21,639 nucleotides of DNA from Ectocarpus siliculosus (Eukaryota; Sar; Phaeophyceae; Ectocarpales; Ectocarpaceae): positions 1,106,740 through 1,128,378 of the forward strand of contig FN649735.1 of the NCBI GenBank assembly GCA_000310025.1, written 5' to 3'. Positions 718-21,639 of the stretch are shown here, in pieces (within the stretch, counting starts at the first letter, position 1; the number at the start of each line of letters is the position of its first letter). Both the position numbers and the translations under genes were made by a program. Below the pieces are notes generated by a model. That model saw only the letters and a list, made by a program, of their open reading frames with translations. It did not search any database and was not told where the DNA came from.

Positions 718-913
718 CTGCATATCCCTCGCCGGGTGGTCCTTGGGGCAGTTTAGCGCCTCGAAGCAGTAGTAGTCGTTCTCGATCTCGGGAGCATCCT
801 CCACGCCGTCGACAAGGGAGTACCCCATGTCTATGAAAACGTCCGTGGCCAGCTCCGTCATGATGGACAGCGGGTGCCGGTGCCCGTGCGGGGCGTGCCT
901 CCCGCTTTGGATC
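718..913 (-). CDS. pheS: pheS exon with HPL motif and start of catalytic domain
   Basis: The acceptor is CTCATCTCAG at 914-915, following an A-rich plus-strand tract that reads as poly-T on the coding strand. The exon has 65 codons plus one base that completes a Gly codon from the previous exon. It contains [15 protein letters not shown], then [14 protein letters not shown] and [11 protein letters not shown]. In bacterial PheS this segment is normally followed by DTFY. The donor is CAG/GTACAAT, and the next exon must lie left of the window. In-frame readthrough into the intron gives unrelated sequence. Confidence 0.92.
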
Positions 914-1739
914 CTGAGATGAGAGCAAAAAAAAAAAAAAAAAGCCGGCCCCCACACGAACGGTCGAGTCGCTATGGATGAACCAGTTTTTGGTATTCGT
1001 TTACATACCTAGCAGCAAGATATCGTTGTTGTGCTTCCCGCACAGACCTCCTCGGTCGTACCAGTCTCCGCAACAGACAACGCTATTGGCAACATGTCTT
1101 AATCATTTTAGGGGGTAGAAAAGAGAATGTTTCTTGCCTCGTCAGCCCTGTCGTGACTGCTACAGAATATGTTGGGTATGTGCAAGTGTCCTCTGGCTGC
1201 AGGAAAGTTCCCCAGAAAACTAGGCGGAAGAAAAAACACTCAGGGTTCGAAATCGCCAGAGCTTTCCGAAAACGCATCATTTGAACTCGGCGTGCTCTTC
1301 GTCGCGGAGTAATCGAGACTTGAACATCGGTCCAGGGGGGGTGGTATCTTGTGCAACCTGCAGTAATCATCTTACCGGAACAATAACAAAAAGCACGTCT
1401 CGTGGAGTGGGAAAGTTAAGATGGCCTCACAAAAAGCACGCCTCGTGGAGTGGGAAAGTTAAGATGGCCTCACAAAAAACACGCCTCGTGGAGTGGAAAA
1501 GCTAAGAAGGGCTCACAAAAAACATGTCTCGTGGAGTGGGAAAGTTAAGGCGGGCTCACAACAACAGGAGTCGTGGAGTGGGAAAGCTAAGATGGGCTCA
1601 CCCGGGCAGCGTGACGTCCACCTTGTCCTTCTCCATCTCCGCCTCGACGGCAGCGTTCTCGAGCGCGTCCTTGGAAGACTTGAGCGTTTCCTCCAAGGAC
1701 GCCTTTACTACGTTGCTAACCTTACCCAGCTTCGGCTGT

Positions 1740-1773
<34 letters not shown>

Positions 1774-2375
1774 TCAACGCAGGAAGAGCGCGTACGGGAA
1801 GAGGAACGACGGCGGTACGAAAGAGGAGGAGGGGATAGAGAGCACCGACACCCAGAGAGGGGATATTAAAAAAAGTTGTGTACTTCTTTCTCATCAAGTA
1901 GTTCCACACCTCTTGTCGGCCGAAAACGAAGTACACACACACACACGTGGGGGGGGGGGGGGAGAGGAGGTTTCATACGCCCGTGTTCCTACACAGCTGG
2001 CCTCGGTTGCACACGGCAATGTTCCTACAAAGCTAGCCTCGACTTGGTCCTGGCTCGCAAACCTCAGGGGGAAAACAAAAGCAAGAAAAGAATGGGAAGC
2101 GGCAAGCACAAAAAAAAAAACGACTTTGGTAGTTGACAGAAGGGGAGGATTGTTCAACCCTTCTCTGGCCATGAAGCCTCTTGAGACGTGGACGGATCGC
2201 CGAGGAGTTGTTTCGTGCGACGGGCTGCAACGGCGGCTTGAACGCGATGCGGTCGCCACAGCAGGAGGTGTGAGCATCTGACGGCTCGAAAAAAAAAAAT
2301 CCTCCAGAACGAAGGCCGACCTGCCCCTTGTCTCACGCCATCATCGCAATCAAAGCCACTAACACCACCACCACC

Positions 2376-2407
<32 letters not shown>

Positions 2408-5400
2408 CAACAACAAAACGTTGAGGTCGACGGATGAGTCGAGTACTGCAGAGCCAACGGTCACCTACCAGGTGCCCCCCCACGCCGCCGCCGCGGGGAG
2501 GGGAGGGGCAACACACTGCACCGTGAAAGGTTGTGCAGGCCTGTGCGTGGACGGACGCATGGACACGCCATCACGAAAGGGGGAATCTCACGGAGACCAT
2601 TGCCAGCACAAGAGCGTTGGTCGGTCGCTAGACCCCACGGAGAGAAACGACTGCTGTGGGAAATTCTGTAGTGGGCGGTATTTTATTTTTGCGGCGCATC
2701 CTCCTTTCCACAAAGGGTGGCGACATGGGGACGCGGAGTAACGCCGTTCATCCCACTATGGACGCCATCGGAACAAGAAAGTTGTACAGCCGTGCCTCGT
2801 AAACACCGCTGTAGTGAAATGAAACAGGGCATATCTGTGATGACGAGGAGAAAAACAATTTCGGCGGCATAAAAAAATCACACTCATGGTATAAAAAAAA
2901 GACGGTGGCACTGAGCCCCCCCGTCTCGTAATTTCCCACCGGGTCGCTACGCACCTTATCTTCCGGGCTGAGGAGTCTCATTTGCCCCATGACCTTCTGC
3001 ACTGGTCCCTTCTTTGTCATGTACTTGCGTCGAAGGTCTTCTAGCTCCTGGTAGTGACAACAACAACCGCAGGGGGAAGCATCAACAACATCAGCCGCAG
3101 CAGCAGCAACAACAACAACAAAGTGTACACAAGAAGAGGGTGACGAGACGGAAATTTATCGTTTGGGGATGCCTCGAAACCTGTGGCCAAAATACAAAAA
3201 CGGTCAGCTCCTACGCATAAAAAAGTACTAAATTAAATCGTCATTCTGTACCTGCAGAGTTGTGGCCGCCTTCATCTCCTTCTCTGCCTCCTGCTGTACC
3301 ATCAGCAGCTCGCTCGAGACCGTCTCGATGTCGATGGCAGGCGCTGCCGCTTCCCCCTCCTACCGTGAACAAGGCGGAAAAGAGCAAGGCAGCGTGTTGG
3401 AAAGAGAGTGGCAAAACGCAAGTGCGCGCTCGCCAAGCGGGGGCGCCCACTTTCTCTTACGGACAACCACTCAAGAAAAATCGATACGTGAGAGAGAATA
3501 CGAAAAGGGCAATGACGGCACACACGCTCAGAGGTGACCCCGTGCCATAGCGCTAAAACTGCACGCTGCCAGTAAGGCGATGATACCAGAACTACGACGC
3601 TGATTTTCGCTTCACTGTGCCGAATACTGACCACTCTCTGGATAGATTTAGATAGCCTTCCCTGGGTTTTTCGTTGAAGCAAACATGTTGGGACAAAGCA
3701 TGCAATCGGCGAAGTTGGATTAGGGATAGGGTCTGCGTATCCCCCCCTCCCTCTTAATCTCCTCAACAACTTGATTTGTCGCGAAGGCGATCCTGAACAC
3801 GGCACTCGTCTTGGGCCGCGGGACGGGAAGCATTCCGGCAGGTGAATGGGTAGAGCGTGCCACCCGTCGGAATGCTTCCCGTCCCGCGGCCCAAGACGAG
3901 TGCCGTGTTCAGGATCGCCTTCGCGACAAATCAAGTTGTTGAGGAGATTAAGAGGGAGGGGGGGATACGCAGACCCTATCCCTAATCCAACTTCGCCGAT
4001 TGCATGCTTTGTCCCAACATGTTTGCTTCAACGAAAAAACCCAGGGAAGGCTATCTAAATCTATCCAGAGAGTGGTCAGTATTCGGCACAGTGAAGCGAA
4101 AGCCCTTCTGTAAATCAGCGTGCCACCCGTACCGCCTCTCCGTCGTCGAGTAATCGAGCTTTGAAGATCGGTCCAGTGGGGGTGGGGGTGGTATCTTACG
4201 CAACCCACGGTATTCGACTGCATGAAGGTCTCTGACAATACTTTCTTGGTACAGACACTTCATTCCGATCTCGACGATACTCTTAGACAAGCTCAACAGT
4301 TTCGGATACACCGAATTTTTGATCGATGACTCTAGCTCTTGCGCACAACGAACCTTCAAACAAGAAATCATCGTCAGAAACTTTCTAGATACCTCTGAAA
4401 AAAGTGGACGGGCAAGAGTACGTAGCGCGCGCTCTTCCCGTCCGAGTGGTATTTGCACATGCGATGATTTCGTGCGAGGAAGACCTACTCCTCAATAGAA
4501 ACTACCGTAGTGTAGTACCATCGCCGACAGCGCCGAGTGGTATTTGGACATGCGACGATTTTGCGTGAGGAACATTACTCCAGCAGAAACTGCTGTCTCC
4601 GAGATCCTTTCAGACTTGGTCCTGAGAGCCTGAGAGCAACTTTTCCTTCGCCGTTGTAAACTTGGTAAGACACTTGCGGACGACAATCGGGCTGCACAGC
4701 AGTCCATGCGGTACTCCAAGGGTTACGAAATAGCACAAAATACTAGACATAGCAAGGTACATGACCCTATGTTCATGCTGCGCTGGATCACCTTGCCCCC
4801 TTTTCCTTTAGCTGCGAGCACCGGAGCGCCACAGACAGGGCTTGCCAAGGCGAGAGAGTCAAACGGCAAACAGACGAACAGGGGCCCAGCGAACGAGAAG
4901 CGGAGGAACCAGTCGGGGGCGAGTCAGCGAATGGCACTAGAGCGGCGAGGATGGCGTGCGGCGGCGGTCCCGAAAATGCTCTTCGTTTCACCGCTGCCAC
5001 TGGCCGACCTAGGCCTGCTTCGTACGGCCACAGCGTTTCTAAGGGCGTCGTCAAAGTACGCTGTTCCGCTTGCGTGGCTCTCGCATTGGAGATGTCCCCC
5101 CCGCCCGACAAAACCGAAATCGGGCTTTGATGGTATGAAGGCACTGAGGCACGGTAGAATTCTAGCTTTCACTACTGTTGCAACCCGTTTGTTACCCGCT
5201 TTAGATTTCACCATTCGTCGGCTGATTGATCTGCACTGATCCTGGGCTCAAGTGGACCGAGCACACCAACGTCCGCGACCGCTGTGATTTGCATCATGTA
5301 GGCCAAGCGTGCAAGGCCAGTGCAGTTCAACAAGCCTCTCGATGCACCAGATATAGAGCTGCCCACGGGGCAAGAAAGCCACTCACAACGAGAGGGGGCG

Positions 5401-7065
5401 TCGGTAATTCGCGATCGGGCACATGAAAAACTACAAATAAAACCTTTTCTTACGTTGCTGGCGCGAGGTCACCGGCGTTCGTGCTCTCTCGTCAACTCGT
5501 CAACGTCACAGGGACATGCGGCGATGAACATGTAAACCCGACGCTGCGAATTTCGATGCCACTTTTTTCTTTATCGACCACAACAACGTAAGGTTTCCCT
5601 CCTTCACGAATAGGTCGGTCACAGGCCATCCACAACAGCAGCAGCATCATGTCTAAGAATACATGTAGGTTATGGTCTCAAAATACTCAGGGCTATACGT
5701 GGCGACGCATTCGCCCCGTGGGATAGGAATGGAAAGAAAAGCGCGCCGCAGGCGGACATATTTTTGGGCTTACCATCAGCTTTGAAGAAATGGGATCTCA
5801 ATTTCTCGGATGGGAATTGCATGTGATGGGAAAGGGATCGTGCTTCACGCTGATGGTATGGTCTATGGTATTGGCCAATCCTTGTTGCTGGGATGGGATG
5901 GTAACATACCAAGTTTTCGCTGGTCATGGTGATGGTTTATTGATGGTTTTGATGTGTGTCGGGTTTGCCGCCTCTCCTGTTCATCATGGCGAGGACACAG
6001 CAAAGCACAGCATTCACCTCGTCGCCAATAAGGCTCCTCATTTCCTCGTCGCATACGTCATGTAGGCCTGATAAATATCACCCTCTTTATACGAAATGCT
6101 GCGCCCAAAAAAACGAACACACACACGCAAAAACTACGGGCTGCTATTTCTCATTTACACCTTACTTGGATGTCTTCCCCGCTACTCAACTAGCACACAG
6201 AGATGCACTTGGCATGCTACACAACTACGCAATTACACAACGACAACCCCTCCCGCCGAAGTATTCTGGGGTTGCAACTAACTGCTGCATCAGCGCTGGC
6301 ATCGCATTTGGACCTCCTTGAACCCGGGAATGAGATGCCTGTTCAGACGGAGCAGCAACATCTTCTCGATCTTGTGGGGGAATACCGGCGCGCATGTCAC
6401 TCAGGACGAGTTTATTGCGGATGGGTGCCATGTTGGGGTGGGAGTGGCTGGAATGGGATATGCTTTTGTGATGGGAGTGGCTGGGATAGGATAAGCCATT
6501 GTGATGGGAGTGTGGATGGGATGGGAGCGACGTGGGAAATTCTAGATGAGATGGGATGGCACTCTGAACCCGATGGGATGGTAAACGTGATGGGATCCAA
6601 ACTCTCCTACCATACCACTACCATCCCATTACCATCCCATTACCATCAAATTTACCATCCCATCTATATCCACGTATAGCCCTGAAAATACTACGTTCCC
6701 CCAACACCTGCCGCAGCAGCGTGCTTCGAAAACGCGCGCGTCTCGGGGAGGGTGGTATACAACGTACGTCAACAACGACCGCATGAGTCAACCTGTACAT
6801 GTTCTTGGGAGCCACGCCAGCGCCACAGCCATAGGCCGCCGCTGTCAGAAAGTGTGAGAACTACATATCCACCACGACAGCCCCCTGTCTACATCTGTTT
6901 CCTCGCCGTGATGGCTGAGCTGCTGAGGTCTCACCGGGATGACTGCTCCCAAGCTCGCTGCTGCAATCTTCTGCTAGACGACGGCTGTCGATACTGGAAT
7001 GGCAAAGTTGATGCTGTAAAGGCGGCACCAGGTGCTACCAACAGAGCAGTAGCCACCAGTGCCAT
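718..7065 (-). CDS. pheS: Phenylalanyl-tRNA synthetase alpha subunit, bacterial type, probably plastid-targeted (partial, 5' part)
   Basis: PheS joins phenylalanine to tRNA-Phe as the catalytic alpha subunit of the alpha2beta2 class II enzyme. Exons in order of transcription: 6935-7065 (presequence), 6793-6841 (tentative), 3252-3359, 2955-3047, 1602-1735, 718-913; the rest, including catalytic motifs 2 and 3, is off the left edge. The last four exons join in frame with GT/AG borders. They give an N-terminal coiled-coil-like domain ([14 protein letters not shown]), the linker DVTLPG, the HPL element that opens the catalytic domain, and [16 protein letters not shown], a hallmark of bacterial PheS. 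Monomeric mitochondrial PheRS (FARS2 type) lacks this N-terminal region and has a different sequence after HPL, so it is not that enzyme. The gene diverges from the SGT-like gene across about 1.4 kb. PheS identity is near certain; plastid location depends on the first exon and is inferred. Confidence 0.85.
1309..1372. repeat. Copy of a dispersed short repeat (TAATCGAG...TGGTATCTT family)
   Basis: GTAATCGAGACTTGAACATC, followed by GGTCCAGGGGGGGTGGTATC and TTGTGCAACC, matches the sequence at 4150-4213 with only a few changes. It is also related to the arms of the repeat in the SGT intron. Confidence 0.65.
1384..1600. repeat. 43-bp tandem repeat, five copies, abutting a splice donor
   Basis: Copies start near 1384, 1430, 1473, 1516 and 1559. 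The core is CTCGTGGAGTGGGAAAG, ending in GATGGCCTCA or GATGGGCTCA. On the minus strand every unit begins with GTGAGGCC or GTGAGCCC, the same sequence as the real pheS donor at 1601. The array sits in the intron between the exons at 1602-1735 and 718-913. Confidence 0.9.
1602..1735 (-). CDS. pheS: pheS exon, N-terminal helical domain and DVTLPG linker
   Basis: It encodes [20 protein letters not shown] and continues to [10 protein letters not shown]. This matches the bacterial PheS pattern of a Gly-Lys-x-x-Asn helix, a charged coiled coil and the DVTLPG linker. The acceptor CTACAG directly follows a (CTG)n run on the coding strand. The donor is CCCGG/GTGAGC, which lies at the edge of a 43-bp tandem repeat. 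It leaves two bases (GG) that the next exon completes to Gly. Confidence 0.92.
1741..1772. repeat. (CAG)n microsatellite at a 3' splice site
   Basis: About ten GCA units on the plus strand read as CTG repeats on the coding strand and end four bases before the acceptor CAG of the exon at 1602-1735. Confidence 0.9.
2363..2416. repeat. Compound microsatellite (CAC)n(AAC)n
   Basis: About nine CAC-type units are directly followed by about nine AAC-type units inside a pheS intron. Confidence 0.9.
2955..3047 (-). CDS. pheS: pheS exon, coiled-coil domain ([11 protein letters not shown])
   Basis: Thirty-one codons, phase 0 at both ends, encode [20 protein letters not shown] and then [11 protein letters not shown]. 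Bacterial PheS has the pattern LxxLRxKYLGKKGxxTxLLKxLxxLSPEE at this point, so the match is direct. The acceptor is CACTACCAG and the donor AAG/GTGCGTAG. Upstream on the coding strand is a TTG/CTG triplet-repeat tract in place of a typical pyrimidine tract. Confidence 0.92.
3252..3359 (-). CDS. pheS: pheS exon, start of the mature N-terminal domain
   Basis: Thirty-six codons, phase 0 at both ends, encode [20 protein letters not shown] and a charged helix ending in KAATTLQ. The next exon continues it as ELEDLRRKY, as expected for the first helix of PheS. A TAG stop is in frame directly before the exon, so it must be spliced at GGTAG. The tract before it (CCACTCTCTTTCC, then CTTGCTCTTTTCC) is a good pyrimidine tract. 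The donor is CAG/GTACAG. Confidence 0.85.
3597..4121. repeat. Near-perfect inverted repeat (arms 241 and 254 bp, 30-bp spacer)
   Basis: The left arm is 3597-3837, the spacer 3838-3867 and the right arm 3868-4121. Aligning them by eye shows only two differences: a 12-bp segment (ACAGAAGGGCTT in right-arm reverse complement) missing from the left arm, and one base in an A/T run. The spacer ends with AGCGTGCCACCCGT, which recurs at the outer end of the right arm (4117-4130). Each arm contains TTAGGGATAGGGTCTGCGT, related to sequence at 15458. The repeat lies in the long pheS intron. No long ORF with recognisable domains is present. Confidence 0.9.
4131..4213. repeat. Copy of a dispersed short repeat next to the large inverted repeat
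   Basis: GTAATCGAGCTTTGAAGATC, then GGTCCAGTGGGGGTGGGGGT and GGTATCTTACGCAACCCACGG, resembles 1309-1372 and the inner parts of the repeat at 10165-10392. It ends in ACGG followed by TA, like the SGT-intron element. Confidence 0.6.
4443..4600. repeat. Diverged direct repeat, period 91 bp
   Basis: CGAGTGGTATTTGCACATGC at 4443 and CGAGTGGTATTTGGACATGC at 4534 begin two related stretches of about 60 bp that share GCGA(T/C)GATTT, GTG(C/A)GAGGAA and AGAAACT. Confidence 0.7.
4601..5679. other. Intronic stretch with no recognised gene
   Basis: Medium open frames on both strands (for example 4706-5239 plus, 4788-5144 minus) overlap each other and show no family motif. It lies inside the long intron of the minus-strand pheS model. 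Confidence 0.4.
5688..6684. mobile_element. Non-autonomous hAT-type DNA transposon (997 bp)
   Basis: Perfect 15-bp terminal inverted repeats are seen: CAGGGCTATACGTGG at 5688-5702 and its reverse complement at 6670-6684. The element is flanked by an identical 8-bp direct repeat, AAAATACT, at 5680-5687 and 6685-6692. An 8-bp target duplication with CAGGG...CCCTG ends is the signature of the hAT superfamily. The subterminal zones are packed with GATGGGATGG-type motifs and with their inverted form (ACCATCCCAT) at 6610-6662, as expected for hAT transposase binding sites. No transposase domain (hAT dimerisation, BED finger) is visible in any frame, so it would need a transposase in trans. The intact TSD and ends suggest recent insertion, here into the long pheS intron. 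Confidence 0.88.
6400..6662. repeat. GATGGGA-rich subterminal repeats of the hAT element
   Basis: GTGATGGGAGTGGCTGG-like units near 6422-6525 give way to GATGGGATGG units, then to inverted CCATCCCATTACCATCCCAT at 6621-6645. This can form a hairpin with the preceding GATGGGATGGTAA. Confidence 0.7.
6793..6841 (-). CDS. Tentative 49-nt linker exon between the presequence and pheS
   Basis: The presequence exon ends two bases into a codon, while the first PheS exon starts at phase 0, so an exon of length 1 mod 3 is needed between them. Here a strong acceptor (TTCTCACACTTTCTGACAG) is followed by 49 nt that read open in the required frame and end at CAG/GTTGAC. The encoded peptide is short and Trp/Arg rich, which is odd for a transit peptide. 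The phase and acceptor support it, but the composition does not. A different exon could serve instead. Confidence 0.3.
6935..7065 (-). CDS. Plastid presequence exon (signal peptide + transit peptide), probable pheS exon 1
   Basis: ATG in a good context (CCTCCCATGGCA) opens a hydrophobic signal peptide, [16 protein letters not shown], followed by [20 protein letters not shown], a Ser/Arg-rich stretch without acidic residues. A Phe right after a small-residue cleavage site (GAA/F) is the known heterokont plastid import signature (ASAFAP-like). The exon ends at CCCG/GTGAGA, a strong donor. An in-frame upstream ATG at 7105-7107 would add 14 residues, but the downstream start gives the better signal peptide. 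The exon points toward PheS on the same strand, with no other recognised gene between. The link to PheS is inferred from position and strand. Confidence 0.6.
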
Positions 7066-8624: not shown

Positions 8625-11385
8625 GTCAGTAGGCCCCCTTCTCTCGTATTGATGCGGCTTTCTACAGGCGGCAAGTAATTATGAGATTAGAAGGTCGGGA
8701 CCTTTGAAATCATAATCATCGCACTCAAGTGGTAACGTACATTCGTTCTCCTTTGGTTCCAAGCACATGTAGCAGTCACGCAGCCAAATCGGATCGACAC
8801 ATCGTTAGTGCAACAAGCCCGTGCTCCCACTCTTGTCGCCAACAATCAAGCACGAATGTTGCACGGCCTTGCACTGTCGAACAATGCCTCCGCCGAACCG
8901 TCTCGGAAGCCACACAGACTGACGCCGTCACCGTGGCAAGCCCCTCAAGCCCTTAAGCTTAACTCCACAGCGAGAAAAGACGGGCTATCGTAAGCTTATC
9001 GCCACTTAGAAAAAAACGGGTTCTCTATCTCACACAAGCCATCTGTTCCCTTGACAGGTTCGCGAGCTGTCCCTGAAGCCGCACACCTTGGAGTCCATCT
9101 TCCGCGCGGGCTGCGCCGCCCTCGGAGCCAAGAGCGCCGGCCAGCAGCTCGCCGAGCTGCAGTCCTCCGAAGCGTTCAGCCAGTTCGTCAAGGTCGTCTC
9201 CGCCAAGGGATACTTCAAGGGGGTGGAGGAGGGCAGCGAGGGCTACGACGAGCGCATGGCGAAGCTCGTGGCCAAGTTCAAGGCGCGCACGGAAGCGGCC
9301 AGCGGCGGGCCTCCCGTCGAAGAGGCCGGGGGGGCCTCGTCCCGCTCTGCTGCTGCTGCTCCGGCGGCGGCAGCGGCGGCGGCGGCCGCGACGAGTAGAG
9401 CGGCCGCTGCGCCGGCCACTGGAGCGAAGGCCGCGGACGAGAAGAAGGCGGAGGAGGTCAAGGGGGAGGGGAACAAGCTCTTGCTGGCCAAGGACTACGA
9501 GGGCGCCGAGGCGAAGTACACCGAGGCGCTCGAGCTGTCCCCCTCGGGGCCCAACAGCCACGTCTACCTTTGCAACCGGGCGGCCGCGCTGTGCTACCTC
9601 GGCCGCAACGACGACGCCGTCGTCGACTGCCAGGAGGCCATCGACCTCAACCCGTCATACGCGAAGGCGTACACCAGGCTCGGCTACGCCTTCTTCCAGG
9701 TGCGGTGCCTAAAAGGTGTTGTAATCGGTAGCGGCTGAGTTTGTTAGTTCGACCCATTGGTAGAATATTTTGGTGTCGTTCCCATGGGAGGTTCCAGGTG
9801 CGGTCCCTCAAAGGTTGTAGCGTGTGCGGCTGAGTTTGTGGGAATATCCTCTTGGGAAATGCTTTTTCTGTCGTATTGTTGGAGACCCTTGAGGCGCAAC
9901 GCCTTCGAGAACTGTGAGCATTGCAAACCAGCACTAGCTCACTTGAGAAGGTGGCTGGGTGTGGTTACCGTTTTGACCTGTGGCCACTCGGGGTCTAGGC
10001 ATGTCTTCTGTGTCGATGTTGAAGTCCCGCGTGGTGCCCGTTCACACGGCAGTTCTTGGACTCGTGTGTTCTGTAGCGCCTTCCGCCGCGGGAAGAGCGT
10101 CGTGGACGCTTGTCCTTGCTTCGCGGTGTGGGGTGGCCAGGCTGCTGCCCTGACCTTCGTGCGCCTACCGTGTGAGGTGGAGAGATGGCACGCCCCCTTG
10201 AACGGCTTTCAAAGCTCGATTGCTGCATGACCAAGGGGGTACGGAAAGAGCCGATACGTCTACGGAAACCCTCGACGATATGTTTCCAAAACGAAAGTTC
10301 TTGGTGTTGGCACAAGCTTGGCTGTGGAGCAATCGCAATCGAGCTTTGAAAGTCGCTCCAACGGGGTGCCATCTCTCCGCCTCTTACGGTAGCTCTGGCA
10401 AGCTCTTCGTTTTTTTTCGAGCCGTTTGGGGCGCGTTGCGATCAACACCCACCCTTGGTTGCCTTCCAGCAATCTCGTCCATTCAGTTGTCTCTTGGTAA
10501 GCATCAACCATCAACCCTACTCCCGAGATTTGCGGGGGGTTGTCGTTGTTTCCTGTGCGGACGCTGCTGGCTTTCCGCTGCTGCTCACCCATGACATCAA
10601 CATGCTAGGGGTGTCCGATCATACGATAGAACTTGGATTTCGCTTAAACTTTTCCGCGAAGAGAATCGAACTATGAGCCTCAATCAATAGGAAACCCACC
10701 ATCTGGTCCGTGTCTCTGTTCGCATCAACCCTTGGCCCCAACACCCACCCCTTTCGTCGCCCATGTCTCTCTTGGCGCCACCCTTGGCAAACGCTCTTAC
10801 GGTGACGACCAACACCAGTTGGAAGACTACGAAGCGGCTGTCAAGGCCTACAAGAAGAGCCTCGAAATCGAGCCGGGGAACGCCGCAAACACCAAGAGCC
10901 TCAGGAGGGCGACCGCCAAGCTTGGCGCGGGGGGGGACGCGGACGAGATCTCCACAAGGGGGGCGGGCGGGGGCGCCCCGGGCGCGGGCGGCATGCCGGA
11001 CTTGTCCGGCCTGGCGTCGATGATGGGAGGGGCCGGAGGGGCGGGGGGGGCGGGGGGCGGCTTGGCGTCGATGATTCAGGGTTTGGCCGGGGTTGGCGGT
11101 GGTGGCGGCGCCGGCGGAGAGGGGGGAGCCCCGGCCGGTGGGCTCGCGGGCATGCTCAACAACCCCAACATGATGGCACAGGCGCAGCAAATGATGCAGA
11201 ACCCGGCCATGATGGCACAGGTGCAGAACATGATGTCGAACCCGGCAATGATGCAGGGGCTCATGGGCATGATGGGTGGAGGCGGGGGCGGGGCGCCGGA
11301 TATGTCGGCGCTGGCGGGCATGATGGGCGGAGGCGCTCCGGGGGCGGGCGGTTCCGGGAGCAACGACGACGAAAACAACAGCTGA
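8472..11385 (+). CDS. SGT/SGTA-type TPR co-chaperone, complete, 3 exons, 453 aa
   Basis: SGTA family proteins are cytosolic co-chaperones. They bind Hsp70/Hsp90 C-termini through TPRs, bind Get4/5 or BAG6 through the N-terminal dimer domain, and hand tail-anchored membrane proteins to the GET/TRC pathway. Exons are 8472-8624, 9058-9699 and 10819-11385, all phase 0. Seen in order: an N-terminal dimer domain (residues ~8-75; VLEHLASAEGDLPSE, LSSAFGL, LESIFRAG); an Ala-rich linker (~145-170); three TPRs (~184-300) with the clamp residues Lys/Asn in KGEGNKLLLAKDY, Asn in NRAAALCYLG and Lys/Arg in KAYTRLGYAFF; then a Gly/Met-rich C-terminus with NPNMM and NPAMM repeats. At 453 aa it is longer than the usual ~310 because of the Ala and Gly segments. 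The start was chosen because the dimer domain begins a few residues later. Confidence 0.92.
8625..9057 (+). other. SGT-like intron 1
   Basis: A 433-bp intron, GTCAGT to TTGACAG. No other feature is recognised. Confidence 0.8.
9058..9699 (+). CDS. SGT-like exon 2 (rest of dimer domain, Ala linker, TPR 1-2)
   Basis: The acceptor is TTCCCTTGACAG and 214 codons follow. The Ala tract ([14 protein letters not shown]) is coded by GC-rich GCN runs typical of slippage. The TPR part carries NSHVYLCNRAAALCYLG and DCQEAIDLNPSYAKAY, very close to animal and plant SGT proteins. The donor is CAG/GTGCGG, and this donor region is duplicated 98 bp downstream. Confidence 0.93.
9694..9840 (+). repeat. Direct duplication of the exon 2 splice-donor region
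   Basis: TTCCAGGTGCGGTGCCT at 9694 recurs as TTCCAGGTGCGGTCCCT at 9792, 98 bp later. Both are followed by AAAGGT-type sequence and then GCGGCTGAGTTTGT. The second copy keeps a full CAG/GTGCGG donor. Confidence 0.8.
10165..10392. mobile_element. MITE-like element with ~58-bp terminal inverted repeats, in SGT-like intron 2
   Basis: The left end (CTACCGTGTGAGGTGGAGAG, then ATGGCACGCCCCCTTGAACG and GCTTTCAAAGCTCGATTGC) is the diverged inverse of the right end (GCAATCGAGCTTTGAAAGTC, then GCTCCAACGGGGTGCCATCT and CTCCGCCTCTTACGGTAG). The outermost bases are TA next to CCGT and ACGG next to TA, so a TA target duplication, as in Tc1/mariner-type MITEs, is plausible. No ORF is expected at 228 bp. Diverged relatives lie at 1309 and 4131. 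Confidence 0.7.
10819..11385 (+). CDS. SGT-like exon 3 (TPR 3, Gly/Met-rich substrate-binding tail)
   Basis: The acceptor CAACACCAG at 10816-10818 gives YAFFQ joined to LEDYEAAVKAYKKSLEIEPG, a textbook third TPR. The tail has long Gly runs and two NPxMM-type repeats (NNPNMMAQAQQMMQ, NPAMMAQVQNMMSNPAMM) resembling STI1/SGTA hydrophobic-client segments. It ends in a tandem stop, TGATAG. Confidence 0.92.
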   Translation: MEDYEAAVKAYKKSLEIEPGNAANTKSLRRATAKLGAGGDADEISTRGAGGGAPGAGGMPDLSGLASMMGGAGGAGGAGGGLASMIQGLAGVGGGGGAGGEGGAPAGGLAGMLNNPNMMAQAQQMMQNPAMMAQVQNMMSNPAMMQGLMGMMGGGGGGAPDMSALAGMMGGGAPGAGGSGSNDDENNS

Positions 11386-17588: not shown

Positions 17589-19453
17589 GTGCGCAGAGAG
17601 CACGCTTTGGTGCACTTGATGAGAGGGTGAAGCACTCTCGCGTGCTTCAATTGTACCAATATGATTCTTTAGCAGTTGATGCTTTGGAATTCGAATATGC
17701 GTGTGAGGTGCGATGCAGCTCTTGCCCTTGAGTCTCCCGGCAGGCTACACGAGTAGACGCGACGTCGATTGACCAGACATGAGAGCGCTGGGCAATGGCC
17801 ACTTGTTCTTGGCGCAGTCTATGCATCCATACCCGGGGATCATTTCCTATAGCTTTCAACCAAAGCAGCAAGTAGCGCAGCAAATGCATAAGCGAATAGA
17901 GTCCCCGAAGGCAGTACACGCCCTTTTCGATTCATTAAATGTTCTGTGCATACACCCACGCGCACCACGGGATCAGCGTTCCTTGTCTCTGCCCTCCCAA
18001 GATGGGTTACCTGCTACTCCGCCTCCAGAACCGTTTTGGATTATGAGAGTGATTCGCGAGGAAAGCATCAAATCCGTGTGTCCATCATTCTTTTTTTTAT
18101 CCTGGTCGCGTTGGTGGCGATTGCGGCAACACAACGGGGCACCCACCGGCGGCATTGTTTTCGTTTTGGATACACTGACCGGGTGGGGCAGATAATGAAG
18201 CAGGACTGCTGCGCCCAGACATATCAAGCGGGAGAAGCTAATTCGGTTCTCGATCGACCCTTGCAACCGCTGCTATTCCGAGCATCTGTACATGCAGTAC
18301 CAACAGCAAAACCAGTGGCATCCTGGTGGACCCTGAGTGTTCGGATTGCGTGCAAAACGTGCGGTCATTATAAGTACACACCAACACAGAGTCTTCTTGT
18401 TCTGCTTGAAGCTCGATGCGAAGTATCTTCGAGGCTATGCATAGTATGCATAGAGCAATGCGTACAAGAATTCAAGAAATGCTGTAGCTGCCACGTGCCT
18501 GGCGTCAGGAGTCCCACTCCCCCCCCCCCCCCCCCACCAAATCTCCACGCTGTCGTGCCCTCTTACCCACAATGGACGACCCGATCAACCATGCTTTGGC
18601 CAAGGGTACATAGCCGGCCAATAGATATATCCTCAGCCGCCGGGATGCAGCAGTTTTGTATCTGCCTGCCCTCGCCAACCCCAAATCGCATAGGAGTACA
18701 GATCTGTCTTTCGCAGCCTCGTTGCTGTTCGTGGCAGGTCGTTCCCCCTCAAGCCCTAATGGACCTCGTCTAACCCCCCCCCGCGGGCCTCACACGTGAC
18801 GCTCAACACCCTAACCCCAACCCTATTTTGAAAGGTGGGACTACAGGAGACGCGACTCTAGAGCAAGAAAAGAACAAAAAAAAACACACACACACGCAAC
18901 AAACACCCACGGAGAATTGCTTAGCCTCCCCCATGCCGTCCCCTCAAGGGGTCCCAGTTAATGGCATTTGGAATTGTTTTTTGTGTTTTCAACCCCACTG
19001 AGACTGACGTACTTGCATTGGCCAGCCGGTTGGCGCGGTCGATGCTAATAATAAAGACACACAAACACAAGCCTTGATTTAATTAGATAACCTCCAAACT
19101 CAAACACCCTTGGCACCACTTCGAGCAGTATTCTCCGATTTTTTTTCGTCAAGCCCCACGCCCGCAATAAACTTCATGTGCGACTAAACTTCATGTGCGA
19201 CCTCCCCCCCCCCCCCCCGCCCCTGCCGCGAATGTGTGCTTTGCTTCAGCGGGGGATGAAGCCCCCCCCCCAACCTTCCGGCGGCGGCTGTACGACCTCC
19301 TGGAAGCCAACACCAAGGTGGGCATGCTGCTCGAGGCCGTGATTGTGCTGCTGATCGTGGTGAACGTGGTGTGCTTCATGCTCTCAACGGAGCGGTCTCT
19401 GGAGGACAACAGAGACGGCCTCGCTCATCTTCGATTCCGTGGAGGTTTGCACG
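17543..19453 (+). CDS. Probable voltage-gated (Kv-like) cation channel, 5' part, with apparent frameshift
   Basis: Exon 1 (17543-17588) begins at ATG in an ideal context (GCCGCCATG) and encodes MYSLFSERESLLSPT, with an acidic dileucine-like ERESLL. It ends one base into a codon at G/GTGCGC. Exon 2 starts after TTTGCTTCAG at 19250 with two bases, completing Ala. It encodes FRRRLYDLLEANTKVGM, then a hydrophobic helix (VIVLLIVVNVVCFML) followed by STERSLE. This resembles the pre-S1 and S1 segment of Kv channels. Shortly afterwards the expected S1-S2 continuation (LIFDSVEVCT) is in the +1 frame, and a GTGAGC donor follows at 19454. S2-S6, the filter and the voltage sensor are not found in this window and may lie beyond it. 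Channel identity rests on one membrane segment and its flanks. Confidence 0.5.
17589..19249 (+). other. Channel gene intron 1 (1.66 kb)
   Basis: It contains a 275-codon open frame (17946-18773) without a convincing domain, C-rich runs near 18521-18537 and 19203-19218, and a 17-bp tandem duplication near the 3' end. If exon 1 is wrong, this would be intergenic. Confidence 0.4.
19168..19201 (+). repeat. 17-bp tandem duplication near the acceptor of channel exon 2
   Basis: TAAACTTCATGTGCGAC occurs twice in tandem, 19168-19184 and 19185-19201, about 50-80 bp before the acceptor. It duplicates a possible branch-point-like TAAAC. Confidence 0.9.
19250..19453 (+). CDS. Channel gene exon 2 (pre-S1, S1 helix, frame break)
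   Basis: Before the break the frame reads GDEAPPPTFRRRLYDLLEAN and on through S1. From about 19411-19426 the conserved reading moves to the +1 frame. The cause could be an extra base in the GACGGCC stretch, a sequencing error or pseudogene decay. Confidence 0.55.
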
Positions 19454-20415
19454 GTGAGCTCCGAGGGGGGGGGGGTCTGTCGTGGGTGGGTATTGCATGG
19501 CTGTGTCGGTCTACTACTGCTGCGGGACGTTCTATGGCCTGGTCGGAGTATGTGCAGCTGTCCACACGGCAGCGTTCGATCAATCCTGTGTACAGCACAA
19601 CTAAATAGCATCTTCTTGCTCTTGGATGCATGCTCGCGGTAGAAGTTACCCTCCTCGCGAAGTCGCTCGATGGAAGGCCGGTTTCCTCTCCACCCGCAAG
19701 CGCATGCCCCGCCATGACCGCAGTAGCACAGCAGCGCCACCACCCCAGCACAGCAGGTTCACACACGTAACCAGCAAACCTAGCTAGATTCAGCTTCCTC
19801 CGTCGGAAATGTGGCTGCTCATGTGTAGCCTGGGGCCGCGACACGTGTGCGCGTTTCGTGTTCACCACAATTACGAGTAGGCGAGACTACGCGCGAGCTT
19901 GGAAGTCACCTTGCAGAAAGTTTTGGGATATGGGTGTTGTCCCGTCTCTTGCTGTGCAGACCTGAGAAAGAGGTTGGGAGGCACAACTTTTGTACCTCCG
20001 GACGTTGTTTTTCTGTCTCTTTTCGTGAACGATGCGCCATTTTCTCTCTGATTTTCTGTTTTTTCATTTTACCTTGTTGTTGGGTCAGCTTGTGACCACA
20101 GAAAATGTAGTGTTTTCTTTGCCCAGGAGGAGCCCTGAAGAGGTACTGCATCAAGCTCCAATTTATTATTGTGGAGAGAACAACAAAACACCAACAAACA
20201 GCCACAGACCAGCAACAGATGTCACTTCCATACATTCCACTTCCCCAGCAAGAAAAATGAGACTAAGCAATTCTTGTTTGTGTACATGGGAGACCTGATG
20301 GTGTGACAAACAAACGACCCAAAAAAAAATATCGGAAAAAAAAAAAGTGTATGGTTCACGCATCATAACCCCCCACGGTGATGTGAAACCAGCGTGTCAG
20401 CCCCGAATGCACATA
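19454..20415 (+). other. Probable intron of the channel gene, nothing recognised
   Basis: No S2-S6 segment, no GYG filter and no domain was found in any frame. It is AT-richer than the exons, with A runs near 20321-20346. Confidence 0.4.
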
Positions 20416-20428
20416 CAGTCGAGGTCCC

Positions 20429-20583
20429 TCTATAGTGCGGGTTATATAGTGCGGGTGCCCGGTATAATGCGGGTGAAATCGCTTGGCACAACTTAGACCC
20501 CTCTATAGTGCGGGTGCCGCACTATAAGAGGAACCCCGGTATAGTGCGGTTTTGGTCGATCTCAGAAACCTCTATAGTGCGGG
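20429..20583 (+). repeat. Subterminal CTATAGTGCGGG repeats
   Basis: Five or six direct copies with small changes (TATAATGCGGGT, TATAGTGCGGTT) and one inverted copy (CCGCACTATAAGAGG). They are probably transposase-binding or end-recognition sequence. Confidence 0.85.
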
Positions 20584-20719
20584 TCTGACGTCATGACGGC
20601 CTAAATGCGCGGTCAAACCCGTCGACAAGTTCCGCACAACGTACACAAACCTACCCCTAGCGGGATACTGTATACTGTACCCCTACTGGCCACGAGAACA
20701 GCAGCAGCAGAGGCGCACG

Positions 20720-21064
20720 ATGCCATGTGCAGCAGGCGAACTCTGCCATCTCAGCACCCTCACACCTAAAGCCCCCGATGGTCACCAATGCCGAGGAGGA
20801 TGCGGAGGCAGACTGCACGGCATATGCGGCGAGGTGGAGGAAGAGGAGGAGGATGACGAGGGCGGAAACATCGGAGGCGGGCGTGCGGAGCCACCGCCTT
20901 ACACGGAACTTTCCCAACACTTCGCGTCCCTAGAAAACTACGCGGCAGGGTGTGGTTTGGACGAGGCCAGCTTCTTGCTCAAGAGGGCGCGGATGTTGAT
21001 GATCGAAGCGCATGCATCTAAGCCATCTCGTCAGACTGACGTCCGGGCGTATTTTGACGCGTAG
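20720..21064 (+). pseudogene. C-terminal remnant of a Tigger/pogo-like transposase
   Basis: The frame ends with an acidic stretch (EVEEEEEDDEGG), then PPPYTELSQHFASLENYAAG, LLKRARMLMIEAHAS and RQTDVRAYFDA and a TAG. An acidic patch followed by a helical segment and a short terminal TxxxYF-type motif is typical of Tigger/pogo transposase tails. Its place between the element's ends supports this. The upstream part of the frame looks poorer than an alternative frame (20727-20933), suggesting a frame break near 20830. The catalytic core is absent. Confidence 0.45.
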
Positions 21065-21163
21065 ATCAATGAGAGATATTTTGCTGCACGTATGTGTTGC
21101 ATGAATTACTGTGTGTCGGGATTATTGCGCCTGTGCGAGTATGCGCCTGTTCTCTCATTGATC
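21064..21163. repeat. 13-bp perfect inverted repeat after the transposase stop
   Basis: GATCAATGAGAGA at 21064-21076 and its exact reverse complement at 21151-21163, separated by 74 bp, start at the stop codon of the transposase remnant. Confidence 0.85.
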
Positions 21164-21639
21164 AACGTCTTCTCCCCTGTCTTTTCTCCGCGGGTGTCGG
21201 CTTTTGTTGTGTTCCTTTATGCACGTGGACTCACTTGTTCGCTTTGGAATGCTTGTTGGATAATCTCCTGTGGCTTTCATCATACGGTGGTTCCTTGTGA
21301 TTGTTTTTCAACGTCCACGGAGCCGTCGATGCACTATAAAACAATGGGACACCGAACATTAACATTTACAACATGTCGTGGACCAAATATCCTCTCGGCT
21401 GTACAGGATTTTGTTTACACCGCTGCTTCACTGCTGAATTTGCACCACGACCCACGTGTTCTCCTAATACCATTGAGCAAACTCGGGTTTCTTTTCCTGA
21501 GGCGGCACTGATACCTATTCAGCCCCTTGTTGGTTGTATGTACTACAGTGGCACCTTCATAACCGTCGTTATGGCCTATGTCCTACCCTTTATCCTAGTA
21601 ATATCGCGAATAGTGCGCATACCCGCACTATTGGGGGTT

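Follow-up and report, generated by a model that had tools for sequence, protein, structure and literature searches.

How is the plastid of a brown alga supplied with phenylalanyl-tRNA synthetase (PheRS)? The question is raised by a stretch of 21,639 nucleotides (nt) of Ectocarpus siliculosus DNA (assembly GCA_000310025.1, contig FN649735.1, positions 1,106,740 to 1,128,378; hereafter the window), which carries part of a gene for PheS, the alpha subunit of the bacterial-type enzyme. The syfB gene of plastid genomes encodes PheT, the corresponding beta subunit, and this product needs an alpha subunit. We consider it highly probable that the Ectocarpus plastid enzyme is split between two genomes, with the nuclear, bacterial-type PheS as its alpha subunit and the plastid-encoded PheT as its beta subunit. 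This is because a bacterial-type alpha gene is present, no matching beta gene was found in the nuclear assembly, and the plastid is listed as keeping the beta gene; on the best reading, the alpha subunit pairs with that plastid product.

A bacterial-type PheS gene in the nuclear genome

Four exons of the gene are visible in the window:

3359-3252, minus strand: PheS exon that encodes the N-terminal residues and opens the N-terminal coiled-coil domain; entered in phase 0, with a pyrimidine tract at its acceptor
3047-2955, minus strand: PheS exon, N-terminal domain (PF02912), KKG region
1735-1602, minus strand: PheS exon, N-terminal domain continued, to DVTLP
913-718, minus strand: PheS exon in which the class II core domain (PF01409) begins; last residues ...DHPARDMQ

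Joined at their GT donors and AG acceptors, the exons form a single open frame of 177 residues that encodes a bacterial-type PheS. A first-pass annotation, made from the letters of the window, had described the N-terminal half of such a protein in four exons, and its exon coordinates proved exact. PF02912 matches the peptide over profile positions 1-68 of 69 (E 3.3e-19) and is followed by PF01409 (E 1.2e-12), with the last exon ending at position 65 of the 246 in the core model. The model TIGR00468 matches over positions 4-120 of 324 (E 2.8e-21) with 76.1 bits, a score that lies below the curated cut-off of 237.45 for whole proteins, which is expected of a partial PheS. The top solved structure was 1b70_A of the 1pys group (E 6.1e-25), whose chain we take to be Thermus PheS. 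Among 107 bacterial rows, 33 columns hold one residue at a frequency of 90% or more, and the peptide has that residue in 28 of them. Judged by sequence comparison, the agreement in conserved columns and domains is far beyond chance.

Mitochondrial-type monomeric PheRS has the core domain joined to an FDX-ACB domain and lacks the bacterial N-terminal domain. The visible gene carries the bacterial N-terminal domain and is thus not a monomer of this type. That it is nuclear is indicated by its introns and by its position on a contig of 4.5 Mb. The possibility of a bacterial contaminant without introns, raised in the first-pass annotation, was not borne out; the conserved exons are separated by three GT/AG introns and lie on a contig of that length, which argues strongly against contamination.

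Two features of exon 913-718 were also noted. Its core domain has a four-residue insert, VEDA, before PEIE that is absent from all 107 bacterial rows, and the extra residues IQS at its start may stem from a different acceptor, situated a few bases further downstream. An NCBIfam effector model matched the coiled coil of the peptide at E 0.013 (13.3 bits, cut-off 999), which was judged to be noise.

PheRS genes in the assembly

The assembly that was searched comprises 189 Mb in 492 contigs. Its assignment to Ectocarpus, siliculosus or very near, agrees with two exons of a type III polyketide synthase on C15, which match PDB 4B0N without a difference over 91 of 91 and 77 of 77 residues (168 of 168 together); that structure is named as E. 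siliculosus PhlD in PMC6274091. PF01409 had eight matches in it, at three loci on contigs C10, C16 and C20, and the C10 locus is the PheS gene of the window. For the C20 exon, the closest solved structures were 9udl and 3l4g, both alpha chains; we assume 3l4g to be of the cytosolic type, and hence the C20 alpha subunit was typed as cytosolic. The C16 exon was closest to solved structures of mitochondrial PheRS, and two more pieces on C16 match FDX-ACB, of which one (E 4.6e-8) passes the curated cut-off and the other (E 7.1e-6) does not. This was the only locus of the mitochondrial-type monomer in the assembly. An archaeal-type beta subunit was found on C15 in six pieces, none of them over the cut-off alone and one with an internal stop. 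As typed by these matches, the nuclear PheRS set is a cytosolic-type alpha subunit, an archaeal-type beta subunit, a mitochondrial-type monomer and the bacterial alpha subunit.

The bacterial PheT model TIGR00472 had no match in the assembly at E <= 0.001, with two candidates scored, in a search that is limited by gaps and by its sensitivity. The model matches in all 14 control genomes, in 10 of them over the cut-off, and the piecewise recovery of the archaeal-type beta subunit by a like search serves as a positive control for this negative result. It could be argued that both subunits are nuclear and that a bacterial PheT lies in an assembly gap, as there are long runs of N in the assembly, one of them adjoining PheS, and weak matches can be missed. 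We regard this as very improbable in view of the TIGR00472 result, the recovery of another, multi-exon PheT and the listing of syfB as plastid-encoded in Ectocarpus. The psbA family PF00124 had no match in the assembly either, and the plastid genome therefore apparently lies outside it.

The plastid partner

For the plastid genome we relied on published gene contents (here and below, papers are cited from excerpts). In Table 1 of Le Corguille et al. 2009 (PMC2765969), syfB is marked as present in E. siliculosus plastid DNA and as absent in Fucus, and it is found in four of the 14 genomes listed (Ectocarpus, Phaeodactylum, Gracilaria and Porphyra). It is reported as missing in Fucales (PMC7005149, PMC8290108, PMC9202911) and, in one of these three papers, as present in Ectocarpales, Laminariales and Dictyopteris; a Sargassum genome was searched for it without a convincing match (PMC8290108). 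The statement in the first-pass annotation that red-lineage plastids, including those of brown algae, keep syfB agrees with the listing for Ectocarpus and was too broad in general. Its central proposal, a nuclear PheS alpha subunit for a plastid-encoded beta subunit, is consistent with the introns and the 4.5 Mb contig, with a nuclear assembly in which no bacterial PheT matched, and with the syfB listed for the Ectocarpus plastid.

A different supply can be imagined, in which the mitochondrial-type monomer encoded on C16 is dual-targeted and serves the plastid as well, which would leave the bacterial PheS redundant or as a relic. There is precedent for such a replacement in the diatoms Thalassiosira pseudonana and Fragilariopsis cylindrus, both of which lost syfB and are proposed to have their plastid served by a mitochondrial-type monomer (PMC4494062), and the catalytic half of the Ectocarpus PheS was not seen. 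A relic is difficult to reconcile with four open exons, intact splice sites and the 28 conserved columns matched. For dual targeting, only one monomer locus was found, and a crude scan of 6.5 kb around it gave no presequence signal, which is weak evidence. Ectocarpus, moreover, is listed as keeping syfB, and it is established that a beta subunit needs an alpha subunit. Overall, we consider supply by the monomer improbable.

If the enzyme is instead split as we propose, the PheS transcript would be spliced in the nucleus and its product would be imported into the plastid. Two PheS alpha chains would there join two plastid-encoded PheT beta chains, and the assembled enzyme would charge plastid tRNA-Phe. 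The catalytic half of PheS would be intact inside the assembly gap, and the gene would descend from the cyanobacterial ancestor of the plastid.

The unseen catalytic half

The window begins at the border of a gap:

1-51, no strand: outermost assembled sequence, including a poly-G run (21-51); beyond it about 19.2 kb of N

The run of N directly beside the window covers C10:1087535-1106739 (about 19.2 kb). Reading away from the window, the sequence was N from C10:1106739 to 1098000 or further, and N again at eight of eight points sampled between 1097000 and 1088000. On the 9.5 kb beyond the gap the catalytic half was not found, as seven bacterial PheS queries gave two matches only, at E 0.62 and 0.77. 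Whole-assembly searches, at their sensitivity, also gave no further pieces of the bacterial-type PheS gene. The N run probably hides the remaining catalytic half.

The candidate presequence exon

A protein imported into a heterokont plastid carries a presequence with a hydrophobic core, a cleavage site before F and then a stretch rich in S, R and Q. One exon upstream of the PheS exons has a product that resembles this:

7065-6935, minus strand: candidate first exon, whose product has a signal-peptide-like stretch, the site GAA|F and a tail rich in S, R and Q; GTGAGA donor, phase 2

The exon is 131 nt long and is preceded by the triplet TAG. The fit of its product to the AXAFXP motif, as named in PMC4169464, is only partial. 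A crude presequence scan of the window, with criteria drawn up only after this exon had been seen, gave four matches, all on the minus strand and at three distinct sites: the exon itself (counted twice, for two start codons), 18934 and 20235. Over both strands, the same scan averaged 0.65 matches (range 0-3) in 40 Markov resamples; by arithmetic, the minus strand of the 5.6 kb that precede exon 3359-3252 would be expected to yield about 0.08. The exon scored -0.55 per codon versus +0.34 for the training exons, which were scored on themselves; a transit-peptide composition could account for the low score.

The first-pass annotation had this exon spliced to 3359-3252. The exon and its GTGAGA donor are there, and the direct join does not work: a phase 2 donor meets a phase 0 acceptor, and a stop follows after 62 residues. 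Enumeration of bridging exons between the two, by rough splice and codon scores of our own, gave 17 candidates of 19-394 nt, of which the best reached a total of 3.0 and none was accepted. A link between exon 7065-6935 and PheS is plausible and unproven.

Phylogenetic origin of PheS

The PheS peptide was placed in a quick tree with 109 bacterial loci, reduced to 102 by dropping two that the open reading frame extension had cut short (L024 and L071) and merging five whose segments were identical. In this tree of 103 rows PheS groups with 31 of 31 cyanobacterial rows, with a support of 87 in the approximate likelihood ratio test SH-aLRT. The set favors cyanobacteria, as 25 cyanobacterial loci in it are the best-scoring of 112 matching genomes. 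More careful trees were built from 62 and 55 rows (61 and 54 of them hand-picked bacterial ones), with seven long rows omitted from the second, on an alignment of 168 columns. In these, the long-branched PheS joins L073 and L015, joins that were flagged as long-branch effects, and Bacillota are nearest by path.

Constrained topologies were compared by the approximately unbiased (AU) test for three groups: cyanobacteria, gamma/betaproteobacteria and desulfuromonads; no Bacillota clade was among them. Placement of PheS with cyanobacteria (likelihood +7.8 over the tree found, p-AU 0.671) was not rejected, and neither was placement with gamma/betaproteobacteria (+4.0, p 0.575) or with desulfuromonads (+5.5, p 0.614). 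Similarity rankings were set aside as proof of origin. Matches were obtained in 112 of 117 cyanobacterial genomes (best 143.6 bits) and in 117 of 119 genomes of the phylum of Tepidibacillus (best 132.5 bits, at 48% identity), and the two score ranges overlap strongly. Among the best 80 of 579 matches, Prochlorococcus is on top and most are Bacillota, and 51 plasmid records match, the best of them from Listeria (45.1%).

The gene could also be a bacterial acquisition with no plastid connection, if not the contamination discussed above. Such a source gains from the two non-cyanobacterial clades that were not rejected and from the Bacillota nearest in the careful trees. A recent transfer is made less likely by the long branch and by the lack, among the matches listed, of any above 48% identity over the aligned length, and the introns and the long contig speak against contamination. 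We judge it highly unlikely that either contamination or an unconnected transfer explains the gene. A cyanobacterial origin of PheS is allowed by these sequence comparisons, and the alpha subunit of the diatom Phaeodactylum tricornutum branches with cyanobacteria (Gile et al. 2015, PMC4494062).

Several observations weigh against the split enzyme as we have proposed it. The assembly apparently lacks the plastid genome, and syfB is known from the literature and not from sequence. The catalytic half of PheS, including motifs 2 and 3, was not found in the assembled sequence. The reading frame is not kept between the candidate presequence exon and the first PheS exon, and the codon score is negative for all 17 bridging exons enumerated. 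Finally, the trees leave the cyanobacterial origin of the long-branched PheS unsettled, the careful ones place it elsewhere, and the most identical single row (48%) comes from the Bacillota sample.

Other features of the window

Two mobile elements lie in the window, both inside the presumed first intron of PheS:

3605-4101, no strand: foldback element (long inverted repeat), with 181-nt arms that are 98% complementary and 67-nt outer arms that are 100% complementary
5687-6685, no strand: hAT-like non-autonomous DNA transposon, with inverted terminal repeats CAGGG...CCCTG and an 8-bp flanking duplication AGTATTTT

The class name hAT for the element at 5687-6685 is our assumption. On the plus strand, a TPR gene was found in pieces at 9055-11385, with TPR repeats, a Gly/Met-rich tail and weak ubiquilin/STI1-like matches below cut-offs; it presumably resembles the co-chaperone SGTA. 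The region 19171-21639, also on the plus strand, has hydrophobic segments with the look of a membrane channel or transporter and runs off the end of the window; two pieces of it have no Pfam match.

Comparison with known systems

The literature searched may contain no report of a brown algal nuclear PheS. Ectocarpus and brown algae have 0 occurrences in the text of PMC4494062. In the excerpts of work on PheRS and the Ectocarpus plastid, the plastid gene is treated, and the word "phenylalanyl" was not found in those of work on nucleus-encoded plastid aminoacyl-tRNA synthetases in brown algae.

Our data extend the two-genome PheRS from a diatom to a multicellular alga and give the plastid syfB a concrete partner; what became of this gene in Fucales is left open by the plastome papers, as far as their excerpts go. 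We would give roughly even chances to a broader hypothesis, that brown algal plastid PheRS has been a chimera of nucleus and plastid since the red-algal endosymbiont, and that when Fucales lost syfB their nuclear PheS was lost as well or retooled. The proposed partnership predicts that in orders that lost syfB the nuclear bacterial PheS is also lost, or that a mitochondrial-type monomer reaches the plastid. If the broader hypothesis is true, Fucales would be a natural experiment on the dismantling of a two-genome enzyme.

The arrangement itself is already known from Phaeodactylum tricornutum, and Ectocarpus is a new example of it. In that diatom a plastid-targeted, prokaryote-type alpha subunit (pheRS3) is encoded in the nucleus and the beta subunit (syfB) in the plastid genome (Gile et al. 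2015, PMC4494062), and the same four nuclear PheRS genes occur as in Ectocarpus: cytosolic alpha and beta, a mitochondrial monomer and the bacterial alpha. Ectocarpus differs in being a brown alga and not a diatom, in that half of its PheS is visible, in the mobile elements of the presumed first intron, and in having a presequence exon that is only a candidate. The pheRS3 of Thalassiosira pseudonana is likewise a nuclear gene proposed for plastid service; unlike the Ectocarpus PheS it is a mitochondrial-type monomer, a type that in Ectocarpus is encoded by the separate C16 gene. With bacterial PheS (TIGR00468; PF02912 and PF01409; 1pys) the Ectocarpus protein shares the N-terminal coiled-coil domain and the first part of the class II core, whereas its gene is nuclear, contains introns, carries the VEDA insert and has its C-terminal half out of view.

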